From Candidatus Sumerlaeota bacterium (GTDB lineage Bacteria > Sumerlaeota > Sumerlaeia > JAFGJS01): a stretch of DNA of 55,547 nt. Shown here in pieces: positions 953 to 44,190 of the stretch (positions are counted from its first letter, which is position 1; every line of letters starts with the position of its first letter). The notes below the pieces were generated by a model. It was not told where the DNA came from. It did not search any database and saw nothing but the letters and a program-made list of their open reading frames with translations. Both the position numbers and the translations under genes were made by a program. The stretch lies in the NCBI GenBank assembly GCA_016928995.1, contig JAFGJS010000083.1, positions 1 through 55,547 on the forward strand, read 5' to 3'.

Positions 953-1106
953 TTTTGACAGGATTAACAGGATCGACTGGATTGAGAAGAGAATAATTTC
1001 ATTTGATTGAACGGACAAACATCATCCGATGAACAATGCCCATTGAAAAATTTGTTTAGGACGAACAAGAGTCAATATCTTGTTGATCCTGTTTATCCTG
1101 TCTAAA
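953..1106. repeat. Inverted pair of ACAGGAT-type microrepeat arms, no ORF inside
   Basis: Left arm 953-978 and right arm 1082-1106 are near-complementary (about 22 of 25 bases) and are built of degenerate 9-bp units of the ACAGGATTA type. A ttgatgttac direct repeat lies outside each arm (931-940 and 1107-1116). The spacer of about 100 bp has no convincing ORF. It begins shortly after the zinc-ribbon stop codon. It has the same architecture as the ORF-bearing inverted units elsewhere in the window. Confidence 0.75.
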
Positions 1107-10651: not shown

Positions 10652-11130
10652 TTAACGCAAAGCCGCAAAGGCGCTAAGATGCAAAGTATTTTAAAAAAAA
10701 TTATAAATTGTTCACTACACGATGAATTCCATCTTTCACCAATTGTTCTCCGAAATTGATGACCATCCCTAATTTTAATTTCGATAGCCGTAAATAAGTT
10801 AGAACTTGCGTTTCAAATATGGATTTGTATTACGTTGTCGCCTTGCATTCCACAATGACTTTTCCCTGGATCAATAGGTCCAGACGCAATTGGGAATCTA
10901 ATAGATTTCCTTTGTATTCAACGGGAATGACGACTTGACGCTCAACTTTCAATCCTCGCATTTGTAATTCAGTGAAGAGCGCCTCTTCATATACACTCTC
11001 TAACAATCCAGGACCACCCAGAGTACGGTGAACCTCAATTGCAGCATCAACAATAATTTTTACTTAACGCATCTTCATCTTTCATACTTCATTCTCTGCG
11101 TCTTTGCGTCTCTGCGCCTCTGCGTTGAAT
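10652..11130 (-). mobile_element. Cassette-like unit A: inverted microrepeat arms around a GxxExxY pseudogene
   Basis: The left arm (10652-10686) and right arm (11094-11130) are inverted and made of degenerate 8-bp units of the ACGCAAAG / GCGCAGAG type. The right arm ends directly before the pseudogene ATG at 11092, and the left arm begins about 15 bp after its stop. On the other side, the right arm ends four bases from the stop codon of the metal-binding lipoprotein gene (11135). The unit interrupts the metal ABC operon while keeping the host strand direction. No transposase is present. Confidence 0.65.
10701..11092 (-). pseudogene. GxxExxY (PDDEXK_3-like) pseudogene, frameshift and in-frame stop
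   Basis: Read on the minus strand, the degraded frame gives AAIEVHRTLGGPGLLESVYE, which contains the GxxExxY motif as GLLESVY. It continues with RLDLLIQGKVIVECKATT and the C-terminal LTYLRLSKLKLGMVINFGE. These are hallmarks of the GxxExxY family (nuclease-fold-like PDDEXK_3; function unproven). A TAA interrupts the frame right after ECKATT, and the region near the ATG (11090-11092) is in another frame with a stop before VKIIVDAAIEV. At least two inactivating changes are therefore present. It is clearly more AT-rich than the surrounding transporter genes. Confidence 0.8.
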
Positions 11131-11134
11131 CGGT

Positions 11135-12088
11135 TCATTCCGTTTCAGGCGTTTTCAGGGCGTTGACGATGGTGTCGATGTTATGCTTGACCATGCCGAT
11201 GTACGTCCCGCCTTCCGTGCCGGCCTCGCCGAGGGCGTCGGAAAAAAGCTCGCCGCCGACCTTGACCTCCCAGCCCAACGCCCGCACTGCTTCCGTCACG
11301 GCGCGGATATTGCGTTCGGGCACGGAAGATTCGATGAAAATCGCACGGATTTTATTTTCAGCGACGAACTTCGCCAAATCCTGCACGTCCTTCGTGCCTG
11401 CTTCAGCCTCGGTGCTGATGCCCTGCAAGCCCATGACCTTGAAGCCGTATGCGCGGCCGAAATAGCGAAAGGCGTCGTGCGCCGTGATCAGAATCCGCTG
11501 CTGCTCCGGCAGTTCCGCCGCTTTGTCCTGCACGTATTGATGGAGCTCGGCCAGTTGCTCCAGATACGCCTCGGCGCGTTGTTTGAATTCCTCCGCGTGC
11601 TCCGGCTCCATTGCGCATAGCGTGCCGCTTACCGCGCGCACAGTCTCCATCCAAAGCGGCACGTCGAACCAGATATGCGGATCATGGTAGCCCGAGACAT
11701 TATCCACAGTAAGTAATTTGTCTTCCGGAATCCCCTGCGTGACCGTGGTCACCCGTTTTGAATCAGCCAGTTTCTCCAGCACATCGCCCATCTTGGCTTC
11801 CAGGTGCAGACCATTGTAAAAAATCACGTCAGCGCGCGACATCTTGCGCAAGTCGCCCGCGCTGGCCTTATAGGAATGCGGATCGACGCCCGCGCCCATC
11901 AAGCCAATCGCCTCCACGCGGTCGCCGCCGATGATGGTGATGGCGTCGTTAATCTGGCCAATGGTGGAAACGGCTTGAATTTTTTCGATTTTCCGTGCGC
12001 CGGAAGGCGAGGTATCGCCGCAGCCGCACAGGGCGATGACGCCTGTCAGCAGCATTGCGAAGAGAACAATATGCTTCATGCGAGTCAT
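11135..12088 (-). CDS. Metal ABC transporter substrate-binding lipoprotein (TroA/MntA type)
   Basis: Periplasmic, membrane-anchored metal-binding protein, 317 residues. The N-terminus MTRMKHIVLFAMLLTGVIAL is followed by a lipobox cysteine (LCGCGD). Probable metal ligands are the His in GVDPHSYKAS, the His in YHDPHIWFD, the His in ITAHDAFRYFGRAYGF and an acidic residue near GGELFSDALGEAGTEGG. This His-His-His-Asp pattern resembles TroA, fitting Mn or Zn. The ATG at 12088 lies eight bases after AGGAAAGG; longer in-frame starts are unlikely because of the signal peptide. It is the first gene of the transporter operon. Its stop codon is adjacent to the right arm of cassette A. Confidence 0.9.
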   Translation of the reverse strand: MTRMKHIVLFAMLLTGVIALCGCGDTSPSGARKIEKIQAVSTIGQINDAITIIGGDRVEAIGLMGAGVDPHSYKASAGDLRKMSRADVIFYNGLHLEAKMGDVLEKLADSKRVTTVTQGIPEDKLLTVDNVSGYHDPHIWFDVPLWMETVRAVSGTLCAMEPEHAEEFKQRAEAYLEQLAELHQYVQDKAAELPEQQRILITAHDAFRYFGRAYGFKVMGLQGISTEAEAGTKDVQDLAKFVAENKIRAIFIESSVPERNIRAVTEAVRALGWEVKVGGELFSDALGEAGTEGGTYIGMVKHNIDTIVNALKTPETE

Positions 12089-12177
12089 ACCAACAGCCTT
12101 TCCTGTGCTGCTTATACCGATTGATGCCGCATTTCTAACATGCGCCTTCAAGACTTGCAACCCTGTTGATGATAATT

Positions 12178-12211
12178 TGTTATGAACGATCTTTTCGAAT
12201 TTCATGTAACA
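12178..12211. promoter_or_regulatory. Possible operator upstream of the metal transporter operon
   Basis: An imperfect inverted repeat, TGTTATGAA (12178-12186) and TTCATGTAACA (12201-12211), lies in the divergent region between the metal-binding protein and the sigma-factor gene, about 90-120 bases before the transporter start. A Zur/MntR/Fur-type site is conceivable, but the sequence does not match a known consensus closely. Confidence 0.2.
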
Positions 12212-12326
12212 TTGCTCCGGCGCCGCATCTAAGCAGTGAACACATCCGGCGATTATACCGGCGAAATGGAGTTGACGAAACAGCCCGAATCGTCTGCAAT
12301 GCAGGAAATGCAAGCGAGGCCGGGCC

Positions 12327-13070
12327 ATGAGCGAGTCGGAGCAAATCCTGAGTGAAATCAGCGCAGCGCGGCGCGATGGACGTCGCGAGGATTTCCTCAA
12401 AGGCGTGAATGCGCTGGTGAATCAACACCGCAACTGGCTGGAGTATCGCTTCGGCTACGACGAGAGCGTGGAGGACGGGCTGCAACAGGCGGTGGTGAAG
12501 GCGATAGAGGCGGCGGATTTCGATGCGATCCTGCATCCCGACGCCTACTTCAAGCAAGTGGCGGAGAATTACATCCGCACGGAGCGGCGCAAGCGCAATC
12601 GCGCCGAGTCGCTCGACGCGCTGGAAGAGGCGGCGTTCGAGCCGTCCGATCCCGCTCAGAATGATGATCCGCGAGAACGGATGATCATCGAGGAAAACGC
12701 GACGCTGTTGCGCAGGCTCGACCTCCCCGGATTGATGGCCGGGGCGCGCAGGGCGCTGGAGCGGAAATCCGAATTGCAGGCGTACCTGCTGCAACGCCGC
12801 GCGGACGTTGAAAAAGTTTCTTACTCCGCGCTGGCGGAGGAACTGGGAATGAAGACCGACACGCGCAGCCTGACGCGGCTCCGCGTGCAGCATGTGCGGG
12901 CCAAGCAGAATTACAACGCGCTGTTCGTCGAGGCGTTTCGCCGCAAAGCCGGGAAGGAACAGGAAGAATGCGAATCCGCGTTCCGGCATTATCTCTGCAA
13001 CATGGAGCGATACCCGCCCCTCGACGAACTTGGTTCGGACGCGGGCGCGACGGCAGGAGGAGAATCATGA
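12327..13070 (+). CDS. ECF-like sigma-70 family factor
   Basis: A 247-residue protein resembling extracytoplasmic-function sigma factors. Residues of about 20-100 form a region-2-like helix bundle with the basic run YFKQVAENYIRTERRKRNRA followed by SLDALEE, typical of ECF region 2.3-2.4. The C-terminal part (SYSALAEELGMKTDTRSLTR) could be the region-4 helix-turn-helix, but it lacks the usual LPxxxR motif, and a longer, charged tail follows. It would direct RNA polymerase to a small regulon. Its stop overlaps the ATG of the next gene (ATGA), so it is probably coupled to a partner that may act as anti-sigma factor. GAGG precedes the ATG. Confidence 0.6.
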   Translation: MSESEQILSEISAARRDGRREDFLKGVNALVNQHRNWLEYRFGYDESVEDGLQQAVVKAIEAADFDAILHPDAYFKQVAENYIRTERRKRNRAESLDALEEAAFEPSDPAQNDDPRERMIIEENATLLRRLDLPGLMAGARRALERKSELQAYLLQRRADVEKVSYSALAEELGMKTDTRSLTRLRVQHVRAKQNYNALFVEAFRRKAGKEQEECESAFRHYLCNMERYPPLDELGSDAGATAGGES

Positions 13071-13636
13071 ACAACTCTTCATTCGATAAATGGGTGAACA
13101 ACAACGCGGCCTTCGACGGCTTGCGCGAGGCTGCCTATCGCGGCGATGCGGAGTCGCACCGCAAGGCGGATGATTTCGCGCGCAAGTGCCGCGTGGAGGG
13201 CTTGCCCGGCGAACTCGACGGATTGCACGTCTGGAAATCGGCGAAGAAACTGCTCGACCGCGCGGTGGAAATGATCGCGCCGTTCCCCCTCATGGCTTAT
13301 CAACCCGCCTCGCTTGGCGCGGCGTCCGCGCTGACCGCATCGACGACAAAATACATCCCGGAGATCGGCGGCTACCTGCGCATCGAACTCACCGCGGATG
13401 ACGAGGGCGCCGTGCGGATGACGCTCTGGCTGGAGGATCATGAAGGCGCGCGTCCGGCGGAGGAATTCAGCCTCGCGGGCGAACTGGAGCCCGAAGGCCG
13501 GTCAATCGCCGCCGTCGCCGACTCGCAAGGCGCAATCACGGTCAAACTGCGCCCCGAAGCTAATCACACGCTGCTGTTCGATCTTGCCCTGGCCGGCGAA
13601 ACCATCGCCGAGGGTCTGCAGCTGTCGTTGAGTTAA
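13067..13636 (+). CDS. Hypothetical protein coupled to ECF-like sigma factor
   Basis: I do not recognise this 189-residue protein. It starts at an ATG overlapping the sigma-factor stop, with GGAGGAG just upstream, so translation is coupled. The N-terminal 75 residues are helical and charged (RKADDFARKCRVEGLPGEL). The C-terminal half is predicted beta-rich and acidic (YLRIELTADDEGAVRMTLWL). There is no membrane helix or zinc motif, so it is not a classic transmembrane or ZAS anti-sigma factor. A regulatory partner of the sigma-like protein is the simplest guess from the coupling. Confidence 0.5.
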   Translation: MNNSSFDKWVNNNAAFDGLREAAYRGDAESHRKADDFARKCRVEGLPGELDGLHVWKSAKKLLDRAVEMIAPFPLMAYQPASLGAASALTASTTKYIPEIGGYLRIELTADDEGAVRMTLWLEDHEGARPAEEFSLAGELEPEGRSIAAVADSQGAITVKLRPEANHTLLFDLALAGETIAEGLQLSLS

Positions 13637-13647
13637 CTCGGGTTTTT

Positions 13648-13830
13648 TCACTACGAAATGCACGAAATGACGCGAAAAACTACTTTACATTTTTCATTGA
13701 CGAAGCGTTCGTTTTTGACTTCTGGGTGATAACCAAAGTTAACCAGTAAACCAAGTTTCATGCCGGTTGATTTCAAGTATCGTGATCTTTGCAGTCATCT
13801 TTTCGCGTTCCTTCGCGCGTTTCGTAGTTA
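13648..13830 (-). mobile_element. Cassette-like unit B: arms around a deleted GxxExxY remnant
   Basis: Arms at 13648-13680 and 13800-13830 are inverted and made of degenerate 9-bp units (ACGAAATGC / GCGAAA types), the same arm family as unit C. The space between them is only about 120 bp and holds a C-terminal fragment of a GxxExxY gene. It starts 12 bases after the stop of the sigma-partner gene. The rest of 13831-14019 shows nothing else. Confidence 0.65.
13690..13787 (-). pseudogene. C-terminal fragment of a GxxExxY gene
   Basis: Minus-strand translation gives YLKSTGMKLGLLVNFGYHPE and then VKNERFVNEK, nearly identical to the C-terminus of the copy at 14931-15319 (YLKSTSMKLGLLVNFGHHPK ... 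YERFVNEK). Everything N-terminal of this, including the GxxExxY motif, is missing, and the arm follows almost directly. It is a deletion derivative of a once complete unit. Confidence 0.75.
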
Positions 13831-14019
13831 TGATAAAATCCGAGTGCCAACATCGCGAAGTAGCTATCTTGCCCTGGCCGGAGAGATCATCGCTGAATAT
13901 CCGCAAGCATCATGTATCTAACTTGATTAATATCAGATATATGCATGCGAAAATCCGACGCAAAGCGAGATCCTGAGTCTAATTTTATTTTGGTTTATGC
14001 GCTTTTATCAAATTTTTAT

Positions 14020-14055
14020 TTGACTTTTACCTCCTATACCATGATAATCTATTCA
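14020..14055 (+). promoter_or_regulatory. Promoter giving an apparently leaderless mRNA
   Basis: TTGACT (14020-14025), a 17-bp spacer and GATAAT (14043-14048) form a good sigma-70 promoter. Seven bases after the -10 the predicted start site coincides with the A of the DUF2089 ATG (14055). No Shine-Dalgarno precedes that ATG, so the mRNA would be leaderless or nearly so. Confidence 0.6.
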
Positions 14056-14417
14056 TGAGTCAAGCAAGAAAGAAATCCAATTGCCCTTATTGCGGCGCCG
14101 CGATGCGTCCGGTCGTCATGGCCTGCGACAGCTGCCAGGTGGAAATCCGGGGACGATTCCGGCAAACGCTGTTTTCCCGTTTGCCCATGGAGGATCTGGA
14201 GTTCCTTGAGCGCTATCTCCTGGCGGAATTCAGCATCAAGGCGTTGGCCGAAAAATCCGGATTGGGATATGTCGCTATTCGAAACCGTCTGGATCGCGCC
14301 ATCGAGTCGTATCGCAAGCTCCTCGGCAACGAAGACGCCAAACGCGCCATTCTGGATCAATTGGATCGAGGTGAAATCTCGGCCGAAGCGGCAGCGGAGG
14401 CTCTGGAAAGGTTGTGA
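14055..14417 (+). CDS. DUF2089 family protein
   Basis: A 120-residue protein with an N-terminal zinc ribbon (CPYC and CDSC) and a helical domain (LPMEDLEFLERYLLAEFSIK ... EKSGLGYVAIRNRLDR) that resembles a helix-turn-helix. It matches the DUF2089 family, small putative transcription regulators. The C-terminal segment ILDQLDRGEISAEAAAEALE looks like the short SHOCT-like motif often found in this family. It precedes a SHOCT-membrane protein gene by four bases, so the two form an operon and may act together. The start is fixed by the promoter at 14020-14048. Confidence 0.8.
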   Translation: MSQARKKSNCPYCGAAMRPVVMACDSCQVEIRGRFRQTLFSRLPMEDLEFLERYLLAEFSIKALAEKSGLGYVAIRNRLDRAIESYRKLLGNEDAKRAILDQLDRGEISAEAAAEALERL

Positions 14418-14421
14418 CAAA

Positions 14422-14895
14422 ATGGAATCATCGGACGTTTCATCGCAGGAAAAACTCGACCGTCTATTTGCTGAGAAAAAAATCACGCAGGCGGAGTATG
14501 AGCGGCTGCAGCGATCGCTCGCAGGAGGCGCGAGCAATGTCGAGGATGAAAAATCCATCGAGGATCAAAGACCGGTGGAACGCAGCAAGCAGCTGCCCTG
14601 GCAGGTGTGGTTGAGCATCGGCATACTGACGGTCGCGGGATTCATGCAGTTCGCGCTATTAATCGGCAAACAACCACTAGCTGCGATCATCATCGTCGCG
14701 ATCAGCATTCCGATGATCTACGGGCTTTATCACAAGCACCGCTGGGCGTTCATCGTGTTTATTGTCTTTTGCCTGATCTCCATCATCGGAGTGTTCAAGA
14801 ATCCAATCGCCGTTCTGTTGAATCTCATCTTCGGCTTCATCTTGTTCACGGCGCATCCATATTTCTTCAGCAAAAGAGACATTTCTATTCCGTGA
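14422..14895 (+). CDS. SHOCT-domain membrane protein
   Basis: A 157-residue protein. The N-terminal 30 residues form a SHOCT-like motif (EKLDRLFAEKKITQAEYERL). After a charged linker come three to four membrane helices (VWLSIGILTVAGFMQFALLI, LAAIIIVAISIPMIYGLYH, AFIVFIVFCLISIIGVF, AVLLNLIFGFILFTAH). The ATG at 14422 follows the DUF2089 stop by four bases, with only a weak ribosome site, which suggests coupling. SHOCT motifs probably mediate oligomerisation. The function is unknown; a membrane-linked regulator working with DUF2089 is plausible. Confidence 0.65.
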   Translation: MESSDVSSQEKLDRLFAEKKITQAEYERLQRSLAGGASNVEDEKSIEDQRPVERSKQLPWQVWLSIGILTVAGFMQFALLIGKQPLAAIIIVAISIPMIYGLYHKHRWAFIVFIVFCLISIIGVFKNPIAVLLNLIFGFILFTAHPYFFSKRDISIP

Positions 14896-14896
14896 A

Positions 14897-15355
14897 AAAC
14901 TACGAAATGCGCGAAAGTTCGCGAAAAGGTTTATTGTTTTTCATTGACGAAGCGTTCGTATTCGATTTTGGGATGATGACCGAAATTGACCAGCAGACCG
15001 AGTTTCATGCTGGTTGATTTCAGGTAATTGATGATTTGGGCGCGATGTTCGTCCGCGATATTTTTCACGGCTTTGATTTCGAGGATGATTTTATCGAAAC
15101 AGAAGAAATCCGGCTTGTAGGTCTGCTTCAGTTCTCTGCCCTTATATTGCAGTTTGAGTTCCTTTTGTTCTTCAAACGGAATCCCAGCCTGCGTCAATTC
15201 CATACTCAAGCATTCCTGGTAAACAGCTTCCAAAAAACCACTCCCCTTCCCTTATAAACCTCAAAGCAAGCCCCAATAATTCGATAACTCTCCTCTTTAT
15301 AAACAATTCTATTCTCCATATTTTTTTTCGCGCCTTTTCGTATTTTTCGTAGTTA
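14897..15355 (-). mobile_element. Cassette-like unit C: inverted microrepeat arms around a GxxExxY gene
   Basis: Left arm 14897-14929 and right arm 15321-15355 are inverted and built of degenerate 9-bp ACGAAATGC-type units. The right arm ends one base before the ORF's ATG (15317-15319), and the left arm begins one base after its stop (14931). The outer end of the right arm contains the TAA used as the stop codon of purD (15353-15355). The left arm starts just after the SHOCT gene. The unit is therefore packed exactly between two host genes. Confidence 0.7.
14931..15319 (-). pseudogene. GxxExxY (PDDEXK_3-like) gene with one-base frameshift
   Basis: From the ATG at 15319 the frame reads MENRIVYKEESYRIIGACFE then VYKGRG and shifts. 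The +1 frame then continues GFLEAVYQECLSMELTQAG, with the GxxExxY motif as GFLEAVY, DFFCFDKIILEIKAVK with nuclease-like D...E-x-K residues, and a C-terminus of YLKSTSMKLGLLVNFGHHP. A single missing base just before the motif accounts for the break, so it is either a fresh pseudogene or an assembly error. An internal start near 15233 would give only 100 residues, lacking the N-terminus. The biochemical function of the family is unproven; the PDDEXK_3 assignment suggests a nuclease fold. Confidence 0.85.
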
Positions 15356-16624
15356 ACCCAAAACCCGATTCCCGATGTCGCGGCGGATGGTTTTGCCTTC
15401 GAATTCGATTTTATCCATCAGGGCGTAGCATTTGCTTTGGGCGTCGCGCAGGCCATCGCCAAGCGCCGTGACGCAGAGCACGCGGCCGCCGCTGGTGACC
15501 AATTCGCTGTTCTGCGAGGCGACTCCGGCATGAAAGACCATGTGCTCGTCCGATTCACCCACCGCATCCACTCCGGCGATGACTTTGCCCTTGGCGTAGC
15601 TGCCGGGATATCCGGCGCTGGCGGCCACCACGCCGATGGCAGTGCGCGAATCCCACTCCAGCGTGATCTGATCCAGGCGGCCTTCGCAGCAAGCCAGCAT
15701 CACCTCGACCAGGTCGCTCTTCAGGCGCGGCAGCACGCATTGCGTCTCCGGATCGCCGAAGCGGACGTTGAACTCGATCACTTTCGGGCCGTCATCGCCA
15801 ACCATCAGCCCGGCATACAGCACGCCGACATACGGCAGGTTGCGGCGCTGAAATTCCGCGACGACCGGCTGCAGGATTTCGCGGTCGATGCGTTCGGCCA
15901 TGGCTTCGTCCACCACCGGCGTCGGGGAATAGGCGCCCATGCCGCCGGTGTTCGGTCCGGTGTCGCCTTCGCCGATCTGCTTGTGATCCTGCGCGGCTTC
16001 CATGCGCCGGACCGTCTTGCCGTCCACGAACGCGAGCATCGAGGCTTCCTGCCCGGTGAGGAATTCCTCGACCACCACGCGCGGGGCGTCATCGCCAAAA
16101 ATGTTGTCTTCGAAAATCGCCTTGAGCTGCGCCTTGGCGTCGTCCGCATCGGGATGAATGCTCACGCCCTTGCCCGCGGCCAGTCCGTCGTACTTCAACA
16201 CGTACGGCGCGGCGTTGGCGTCGATGTACGCCTCGGCGTCGGCGCGGTTGTCGAACGTGGCGTATGCGCCGGTCGGCACGCCCGCGTCCTGCATCAATTG
16301 CTTGGCGAAGTCCTTGCTGCCTTCGAGCAGCGCGGCGCCCTTGCGCGGGCCGAAAACCTTCACTCCGGCGTCAATCAACGCATCGGCCAATCCATCGACC
16401 AACGGCGCTTCCGGTCCGACGGCGACGAGCTCGATTTGATGGTTCGTGACGAAATCCTTCACCGCGTCGAACGGGGCTTTCAACGCGAGATCAACGTTCT
16501 CGCCGACTTGCGCCGATCCAGCGTTGCCCGGCGCGATGTAAAGTTTCGAGCACAGCGGCGACTGCGCCATTTTCCAAGCCATGCAATGTTCCCGCCCGCC
16601 CGAACCGATGAGAAGAATGTTCAT
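15353..16624 (-). CDS. purD: Phosphoribosylamine-glycine ligase
   Basis: Second step of purine synthesis: ATP-dependent ligation of glycine to phosphoribosylamine. The 423-residue protein begins MNILLIGSGGREHCMAWKM, the standard N-terminus, and has the ATP-grasp features VLKYDGLAAGKGVSI, GPNTGGMGAYSPTPV and EFNVRFGDPETQ. The ribosome site CAGGAG lies nine bases before the ATG. Its 5' untranslated region is the left arm of cassette D, and its stop codon lies within the right arm of cassette C. It is on the same strand as pyrC, with unit D between them. Confidence 0.96.
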   Translation of the reverse strand: MNILLIGSGGREHCMAWKMAQSPLCSKLYIAPGNAGSAQVGENVDLALKAPFDAVKDFVTNHQIELVAVGPEAPLVDGLADALIDAGVKVFGPRKGAALLEGSKDFAKQLMQDAGVPTGAYATFDNRADAEAYIDANAAPYVLKYDGLAAGKGVSIHPDADDAKAQLKAIFEDNIFGDDAPRVVVEEFLTGQEASMLAFVDGKTVRRMEAAQDHKQIGEGDTGPNTGGMGAYSPTPVVDEAMAERIDREILQPVVAEFQRRNLPYVGVLYAGLMVGDDGPKVIEFNVRFGDPETQCVLPRLKSDLVEVMLACCEGRLDQITLEWDSRTAIGVVAASAGYPGSYAKGKVIAGVDAVGESDEHMVFHAGVASQNSELVTSGGRVLCVTALGDGLRDAQSKCYALMDKIEFEGKTIRRDIGNRVLG

Positions 16625-16646
16625 GAATGCAACTCCTGATATTTTT

Positions 16647-17160
16647 TTAACGCAGAGACGCAGAGGCGCAAAGACCCATTAAGCGATCTCTGTGTTGATA
16701 TTTGCGTGTCCTCTTTATGTTTCGTCAACACTTGCGCGGTAGATGCTGAGCATGATGATGCAACCGAGTTCCCCGGCCAGTTTGGATAATGCCGGAGGTA
16801 TTGACAAAGTTTTCATCACCATATCTTTCGTGAAAAACAACCCAATATCGAAATCGGCGTATTCAATGCCGGGATAATTCATGAGACGCTGAAACTCAGC
16901 AGAATATTCCGTCAAAAAATCAATGGTATCTTGAATTTGAGGTTCTAGCTCATGTTCGCCAATGTCGGATACACTGATTTGAAATCCCGATCTCACATGC
17001 GGTTCAGCACGAAATGATTGTTGCTCGCCTTTGTGATAGATCTCAGCAAAATCTTTCCAGCATGATTCCGCGATGAATCCATCAACATCGAAGTTTTCTC
17101 CTGCCACCCTGAAGATGCATCCCGGCATGTTCTCAGCGCCTCTGCGTCTTTGCGTTAAAT
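16647..17160 (-). mobile_element. Cassette-like unit D: arms around an unrelated 137-aa ORF
   Basis: Left arm 16647-16676 and right arm 17132-17160 are inverted ACGCAAAG/GCGCAGAG-type 8-bp unit arrays, the same arm family as units A and E. The right arm ends four bases before the ORF's ATG (17128) and, on its other side, five bases from the pyrC stop (17166). The left arm is 23 bases from the purD ATG. The enclosed gene is intact and is not a GxxExxY protein, so the same arms carry different cargo. Confidence 0.65.
16715..17128 (-). CDS. Hypothetical 137-aa protein carried between inverted arms
   Basis: I recognise only a loose similarity to small uncharacterised proteins that begin MPGCIFRVAGENFDVDGF. 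No catalytic motif, signal peptide or membrane helix is visible. The fold appears mixed alpha/beta (FQISVSDIGEHELEPQIQ, IEYADFDIGLFFTKD). The last part, LSKLAGELGCIIMLSIYRAS, is well defined and the frame is intact. There is no normal ribosome site, because the repeat arm abuts the ATG. Base composition is lower in GC than purD and pyrC. Its placement between arms like those of the GxxExxY units suggests it travels or spreads the same way. Confidence 0.55.
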   Translation of the reverse strand: MPGCIFRVAGENFDVDGFIAESCWKDFAEIYHKGEQQSFRAEPHVRSGFQISVSDIGEHELEPQIQDTIDFLTEYSAEFQRLMNYPGIEYADFDIGLFFTKDMVMKTLSIPPALSKLAGELGCIIMLSIYRASVDET

Positions 17161-18610: not shown

Positions 18611-18751
18611 TCTTGCTCCTGCTCTTGCTCTTGCTCTCAATCGAATTCCAACGCCGGATTTGGAAATCGGATTCAACTTGCTAACGCTGCGTAGAAATGA
18701 AATTACCGGCTCCGCGAAGAGCGGAATATCAGAGCAAGAGCATGAGCAAGA
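18611..18751. repeat. Inverted pair of GAGCAA/TTGCTC microrepeat arms
   Basis: Arm 18611-18638 (ttgctc repeats, 6-bp units) is complementary to arm 18730-18751 (agagcaagagcatgagcaag). The 90-bp interior has no convincing ORF. The rest of the 590-base gap between pyrC and ppdK holds a possible -35 TTGACA at 18909-18914, but no clear -10 and no gene that I can support. Confidence 0.6.
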
Positions 18752-44059: not shown

Positions 44060-44190
44060 TTAACGCAAAGGCGCAGAGACGCAAAGAGCGCAACGGCATT
44101 CAACATGATGAACTTAACGAATCAATAGTGTAAAAGCATACAATCCAAAAAACCTTTGCGCTCTTTGCGTCTCTGCGCCTTTGCGTTGAA
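44060..44190. repeat. Unit E: inverted ACGCAAAG-type arms, empty
   Basis: Arms 44060-44092 and 44156-44190 are near-perfect reverse complements over more than 30 bases and are made of 8-bp ACGCAAAG / GCGCAGAG units as in units A and D. The spacer of about 65 bp holds no ORF. It lies between the divergent glycosyltransferase-like genes. Confidence 0.85.

Follow-up and report, generated by a model that had tools for sequence, protein, structure and literature searches.

A contig of Candidatus Sumerlaeota bacterium (GenBank assembly GCA_016928995.1, contig JAFGJS010000083.1), analyzed over its whole length of 55,547 nucleotides and called the window here, carries six small units (A to F) in which inverted arms of degenerate tandem microrepeats enclose one small gene, its remnant or no gene at all. 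That such units are mobile, bounded by their arms and sited between genes is well supported. The gene most often enclosed encodes a GxxExxY protein, a predicted nuclease, and we regard it as probable (roughly 0.6) that the units are mobile elements and that the protein encoded inside acts on the arms of its own unit; the mobility and the borders are well supported, and the role of the nuclease in movement is what we infer. Four cassette-like units with inverted arms (A to D) had been proposed in the original prediction, and all four were found at 10652-17160 of the window. They are real, but the set was incomplete, since units E and F had been overlooked.

The borders of the units were read from near-identical copies. 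A complete 2.25-Mb chromosome from another phylum (G166) contains units that are 96-97% identical at two loci, arranged as two and three tandem copies of a 472-bp repeat. Identity starts at CACGCAGATTTCGCAGATAACGCAGATT (CACGCAGATTTCGCAGAT) and continues up to the outer end of the inverted arm, and the flanks are unrelated, showing that the units begin and end with their arms, as had been supposed from the window. A direct target duplication was seen at neither locus. GxxExxY is the only gene in these copies, and no recombinase gene was found there. Every internal junction of the arrays has the same short replacement sequence, TT[TG]AAGTGGGTTG, which would be expected had the array or a circular form moved or been amplified. 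At one of the G166 loci (L356; 3450-3590 and 4500-4620), two of the three tandem GxxExxY copies contain, at an identical position, a hairpin-like insert of about 130 bp.

Orthologous sites without the unit were found at two loci in sister species; the genomes nearest to the source genome in these comparisons belong to the same class. The site between lexA and a cysteine desulfurase gene is filled in G038 and empty in its sister species G034, both from the class of the window, and when the joined flanks were used as query, G034 returned one high-scoring segment pair of 1,096 columns and the filled locus returned two. A second, rdgC-like site holds a unit in G038, and in both G034 and G007 it is empty. 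The empty sites do not contain any arms. Spreading by recombination or by an enzyme recognizing the arm fold had both been suggested for the units; the enzyme fits better, because the empty sites have no arms and the arm words differ among units, which argues against recombination between arms. One intergenic site is occupied, depending on the genome, by a GxxExxY pair, by another GxxExxY type or by a four-helix-bundle unit. The gap between MoxR and DUF58 genes (L208, L246-L249) holds a GxxExxY unit, a nucleotidyltransferase, another insert or almost nothing, again by genome, and is an insertion hotspot.

Arms of this design are abundant in the source genome (4.55 Mb, 161 contigs). All eight GxxExxY genes detected there are closely flanked by microrepeat arms, which are inverted in seven. 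The arm words vary from gene to gene (ACGCAGAG, CACAGAGG, ACGAAATG, GGAGATATG and AATCCTGTT), and the earlier description of two arm sequences thus did not hold: even this genome has more than two words, and many words follow one design. With one mismatch allowed, the motif ACGCARAGNCGCARAG matched 172 times, compared to 33 matches for the reversed pattern, and a wider arm pattern gave 379 matches compared to 59. Scanning 0.72 Mb of the genome revealed numerous arm pairs, both gene-bearing and gene-less. The elements measure about 430-550 bp, with arms of 25-35 bp consisting of three or four degenerate units; in GxxExxY arms the unit is mostly CRCNRAG followed by 1-3 nt, and the purine-rich units lie in the 5' arm, near the start codon, in 57 of the 67 scorable elements. 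When the open reading frames (ORFs) between arm pairs were tabulated in a GxxExxY-enriched sample, this family accounted for 28 of the 48 enclosed ORFs of at least 60 aa.

The same arrangement was found elsewhere. Most of the 37 GxxExxY loci in genomes of the same class have inverted arms, again with different words. In diverse bacterial and some archaeal loci, located with a consensus GxxExxY protein as query because there was no conserved stretch for an alignment-based scan, and therefore biased toward consensus-like members, an inverted-repeat score of at least 15 was reached at 59 of 76 testable loci (median 22). Only 6% of random positions and 20% of mismatched upstream/downstream pairs reached this score, the latter rate being raised because the units have the word type C[AG]C[N][AG]AG in common. 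These controls, together with the reversed patterns, ruled out chance or low complexity as the origin of the arms. Terminators were also rejected: on the outer side, the sequence tends to be T-rich ahead of the 5' arm and A-rich beyond the 3' arm, an arrangement that differs from a hairpin followed by a T run.

The arms are linked to the protein that they enclose. In a comparison of 39 genomes, those with more GxxExxY genes tend to have a larger excess of arm motifs per Mb (Spearman 0.71, p 3e-7, uncorrected for relatedness). A second, unrelated family, the four-helix-bundle or S23 proteins encoded in 23S rRNA intervening sequences (IVSs; TIGR02436), has inverted microrepeat arms at 24 of 30 genes, cyanobacterial plasmids included. 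Repeats of 7 nt were found in 11 of 14 four-helix-bundle units and in none of 63 GxxExxY units (Fisher p 5e-11), of which 56 have repeats of 8, 9 or 10 nt. Repeat length thus goes with the enclosed gene family, and genome background is not the cause of the difference, since both kinds of unit occur in the same genome. The two arms of a unit agree at the variable positions 2, 4 and 5 (r 0.93, 0.80 and 0.89). In two orthologous pairs, one at the thrS-TauE site and one, read by eye, at a cysteine desulfurase site, the same repeat unit seems to have been altered in both arms. A block-shuffle test of the arms looked positive and was set aside because shuffling breaks the repeat phase. Two four-helix-bundle units with 7-nt arms, on plasmids of Anabaena sp. 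90 and Picosynechococcus (L408, L411), lie within CRISPR-Cas clusters, in the orders cas6-unit-cas4 and cas10/cmr2-unit-cmr3.

The GxxExxY copies in the window (A to C) are broken, and catalytic residues were scored in intact relatives. G24, Y30, D67, E77, K79 and Q91 are invariant over 53 of these, and Y95 is nearly so; from this conservation, D67, E77 and K79 appear to be the triad of a PD-(D/E)XK nuclease with a QxxxY-type motif (Q91, Y95). The structure was predicted with a mean local confidence (pLDDT) of 95.6. Its best structural match is the Cas4 protein SSO0001 (Z 9.4, 99 residues, root-mean-square deviation 3.8), followed by lambda exonuclease, archaeal Hjc and AddAB; the Foldseek E-values are modest (2.5e-3 or weaker), and a sequence search of solved structures with GxxExxY gave no match. 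GxxExxY is therefore predicted to be a single-domain nuclease of the Cas4/lambda-exonuclease-like PD-(D/E)XK kind, a likeness in fold that does not by itself demonstrate function. It had been suggested that the units are non-autonomous, which does not suit most of the ORF-bearing ones: they share this one family, a predicted nuclease that is possibly the enzyme itself.

In the mechanism that we propose, the GxxExxY nuclease would recognize the repeated arm units or, in single-stranded or cruciform DNA, the hairpin into which these fold, and cut there. The released element would then insert between other genes. It may be circular, because the tandem copies have one junction in common, and an excised circle would carry the junction AATCAGC-TTTAAGTGGGTTG-CACGCAG. 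The gene would not need a promoter of its own if transcription of the host operon reads through it. The 5' arm has a purine-rich end, which sits at the position of a ribosome binding site and may serve as one. Decay of the gene (A, B, C) or its loss (E, F) would leave arms that could still move in trans, and gene-less hairpins may be such decayed or trans-mobilized copies. The four-helix-bundle (S23) units would represent a parallel system with a protein of their own and 7-nt arms.

An explanation at the level of RNA, which we consider unlikely, treats the units as IVS-like inserts: the stem formed by the arms would be cut by RNase III from operon transcripts, so that the insertion is tolerated, abundance would reflect the survival of inserts in operons, and the enclosed protein would be incidental or act on RNA. 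The closest relative of the units, the 23S rRNA IVS, has exactly this plan (PMC4990558). The arms pair in predicted transcripts, forming the closing stem in units A, B and D (z -3.5 to -4.3) and a weaker one in unit C (z -2.1), and units lie co-directionally in operons, with both neighbors in the orientation of the unit in 28 cases versus 6 (p 2e-4). This co-orientation also fits read-through expression of the enclosed gene. Against the explanation by RNA, the upstream neighbor is not co-directional at about 30% of units. In addition, a double-stranded RNA stem alone should not tie repeat length to gene family, and the arrival of copies at new sites is left unexplained.

Somewhat less probable still is that an unrelated recombinase or transposase moves the units in trans and that GxxExxY and four-helix-bundle proteins are cargo selected separately, for example for phage defense. 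Unit D and some other arm pairs do enclose unrelated ORFs, and a Y1/RAYT-like transposase is encoded in the source genome (L300). Furthermore, few plasmids carry GxxExxY (8 of 72,556 records, all typed as non-mobilizable and mostly very large), and it was found in none of the 50,697 phage records searched, which suggests that it relies on some chromosomal process. However, a single family dominates the cargo in a GxxExxY-enriched sample, the arm period goes with the enclosed family, and genomes without GxxExxY mostly show background arm density. That the hairpins came first, as host repeats made by slippage and template switching between which genes landed later, so that arms are not parts of a mobile unit, is very improbable: gene-less hairpins are common and the arms are slippage-prone microrepeats, but empty orthologous sites wholly lack arms, and in near-identical copies the arms belong to the shared stretch and form its ends.

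Several observations weigh against the enclosed protein acting on its own arms. Genome G004 has excess arms without a GxxExxY gene, and about one fifth of the loci lack detectable arms. One GxxExxY gene of the source genome (L003) has arms in the same orientation, not inverted. Arm words differ among units with similar proteins, which is awkward for ordinary sequence recognition. A strict base-by-base register test of arm co-variation in 11 units was not significant, and our claim is thus limited to common words and does not extend to base-pair co-variation. The arms may also be acted on in trans by an enzyme encoded elsewhere in the genome.

GxxExxY genes occur in about one fifth of the sampled diverse bacterial genomes. 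They are found, for example, between fabD and fabG in Sphingomonas parapaucimobilis and after radA in Bacteroides finegoldii. In a GxxExxY tree, the phylum labels require 22 changes (minimum 13, shuffled 32), which weakly suggests that the family has likely spread across phyla to some extent.

Among small inverted-repeat mobile elements, the nearest known kind is the IVS. The 23S rRNA IVSs are 428-444 nt long, have a 28-bp terminal stem with the S23 ORF in the loop and are excised by RNase III; their distribution is sporadic, and mobility has been proposed (PMC4990558). They resemble our units in the terminal inverted repeat stem around one small ORF and in the length of about 430 nt, and the intergenic four-helix-bundle units even carry the IVS protein family (PF05635, TIGR02436). 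In contrast to IVSs, which lie inside 23S rRNA genes, the units described here are located between protein genes and have tandem microrepeats as arms, and those of the GxxExxY kind (A to C) carry an unrelated nuclease instead of an S23 ORF. In the REPIN-RAYT system, numerous hairpins per genome are accompanied by a dedicated protein (PMC3116915). Numerous short hairpins, an apparent dependence on a small dedicated protein and the lack of a fixed large transposon are similar here, whereas RAYT belongs to the Y1/HUH transposases and REPs are short palindromes of fixed sequence; the enclosed protein of our units is of the PD-(D/E)XK type, and their arms consist of degenerate microrepeats, differ in their words by unit and have the gene between them in many copies. 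The RAYT-like Y1 transposase gene of the source genome (L300, 3009-3620; G000:C148) has its own palindromic repeats, GTCCCGAAGGGAC.

Miniature inverted-repeat transposable elements and insertion sequences likewise have inverted termini, mobility and decayed or gene-less derivatives. The GxxExxY gene, however, lacks the domains of DDE, HUH, tyrosine and serine recombinases, no direct target duplication was seen, and the arm sequence is not conserved across the family. Cyanobacterial heptanucleotide repeats, the short tandemly repeated repetitive sequences (STRRs), are degenerate 7-nt tandem repeats between genes, and arms of this type, with 7-nt repeats, were found in the four-helix-bundle units from plasmids of Nostoc, Calothrix and Anabaena. 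To our knowledge, STRRs have been described as repeats and not as arms of a gene-bearing element. No description of the present system was found in the open-access literature (subscription papers lay outside the search), where just two papers mention the name GxxExxY, each of them in passing. The units are apparently a very widespread and undescribed kind of tiny mobile element, and there is a real chance that the mechanism is new.

As a wider and more tentative proposal, the units would form a new class of autonomous elements in Bacteria and Archaea, each moved by the Cas4/lambda-exonuclease-like nuclease that it encodes, which would act on degenerate-microrepeat hairpins. The protein would set the repeat length, words would drift between copies while the arms of each copy are kept alike, GxxExxY and S23 would have converged on this design, and many short dispersed repeats in environmental genomes would be its remains. 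If it is shown that mobile units enclose GxxExxY as their gene, this large orphan family of nucleases would gain a function, a large share of the short dispersed repeats in environmental genomes would be explained, and the long-puzzling 23S rRNA IVSs would become part of a broader class of small mobile elements. The rule tying repeat length to the protein is open to direct test.

Of the units in the window, A, B and C carry decayed GxxExxY genes, and E and F are gene-less (Table 1). The two TIGR04256 matches in the window reach 147.9 and 137.2 bits, compared to a curated cut-off of 35. The intact ORF of unit D bears out the earlier observation that one unit carries an unrelated gene and shows that the arms are able to enclose a passenger; its sole relative among 39 genomes of the class, in G010, is without arms. 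The neighbors of the units are protein genes (among them ABC transporter, purD and pyrC genes), and an insertion into a 23S rRNA gene was not seen. An Rfam search of the window matched no known structured RNA, and a known RNA of this kind was therefore rejected for its units.

Table 1. Arms and enclosed sequences of units A to F, with positions in the window.
Feature	Position	Strand	Remarks
Unit A, 3' arm	10652..10686	-	ACGCAAAG units; inverted copy of the unit A 5' arm
Unit A, GxxExxY pseudogene	10713..11063	-	internal TAA (1 in genome search), start out of frame; TIGR04256 E 3e-40
Unit A, 5' arm	11093..11129	-	inverted partner of 10652..10686
Unit B, 3' arm	13650..13678	-	ACGAAATGC units; arm pair 83% complementary
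Unit B, C-terminal GxxExxY remnant	13690..13779	-	83% identical to the corresponding part of unit C; Pfam PDDEXK_3 (PF13366) E 3e-4
Unit B, 5' arm	13800..13828	-	partner of 13650..13678, 83% complementary
Unit C, 3' arm	14898..14927	-	arm pair 77% complementary
Unit C, frameshifted GxxExxY gene	14931..15319	-	TIGR04256 E 1.5e-43 reading across the break; genome search match 14946-15245
Unit C, 5' arm	15325..15354	-	partner of 14898..14927, 77% complementary
Unit D, 3' arm	16646..16674	-	ACGCAGAG units; arm pair 90% complementary
Unit D, intact 137-aa passenger ORF	16715..17128	-	DUF4279 match sub-threshold (E 0.006)
Unit D, 5' arm	17131..17159	-	stops 2-3 nt ahead of the unit D ATG
Unit E, gene-less hairpin	44060..44190	.	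ACGCAAAG/ACGCAGAG arms as in A/D; RNA fold z -11.5
Unit F, gene-less hairpin	953..1106	.	9-nt arm word GACAGGATTA; RNA fold z -5.5

The arm word of unit F, GACAGGATTA, flanks GxxExxY genes in other genomes, and the same word type is present around GxxExxY at locus L082. The arms of this unit read TTTTGACAGGATTAACAGGATCGACTGGAT, and the 9-nt word GACAGGAT is repeated in several gene-less hairpins of the same genome. A further inverted microrepeat pair, TCTTGCTCCTGCTCTTGCTCT / AGAGCAAGAGCATGAGCAAGA, lies at 18611-18751, between pyrC and the following gene. Unit B is flanked by two copies of a 40-nt stretch (13581-13620 and 13866-13905) in the same orientation and 80% identical, which could be due to a gene duplication or to an old, large target duplication. 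One GxxExxY unit in G082 (L336) is located inside long GGGAAGAGAGG-type repeats on both sides, with an inverted-repeat score of 71. In G007 (C4:266074-266901) and G015 (C73:5068-5910), adjacent GxxExxY domains share one open frame (302 and 360 aa) and are possibly fused tandem units.

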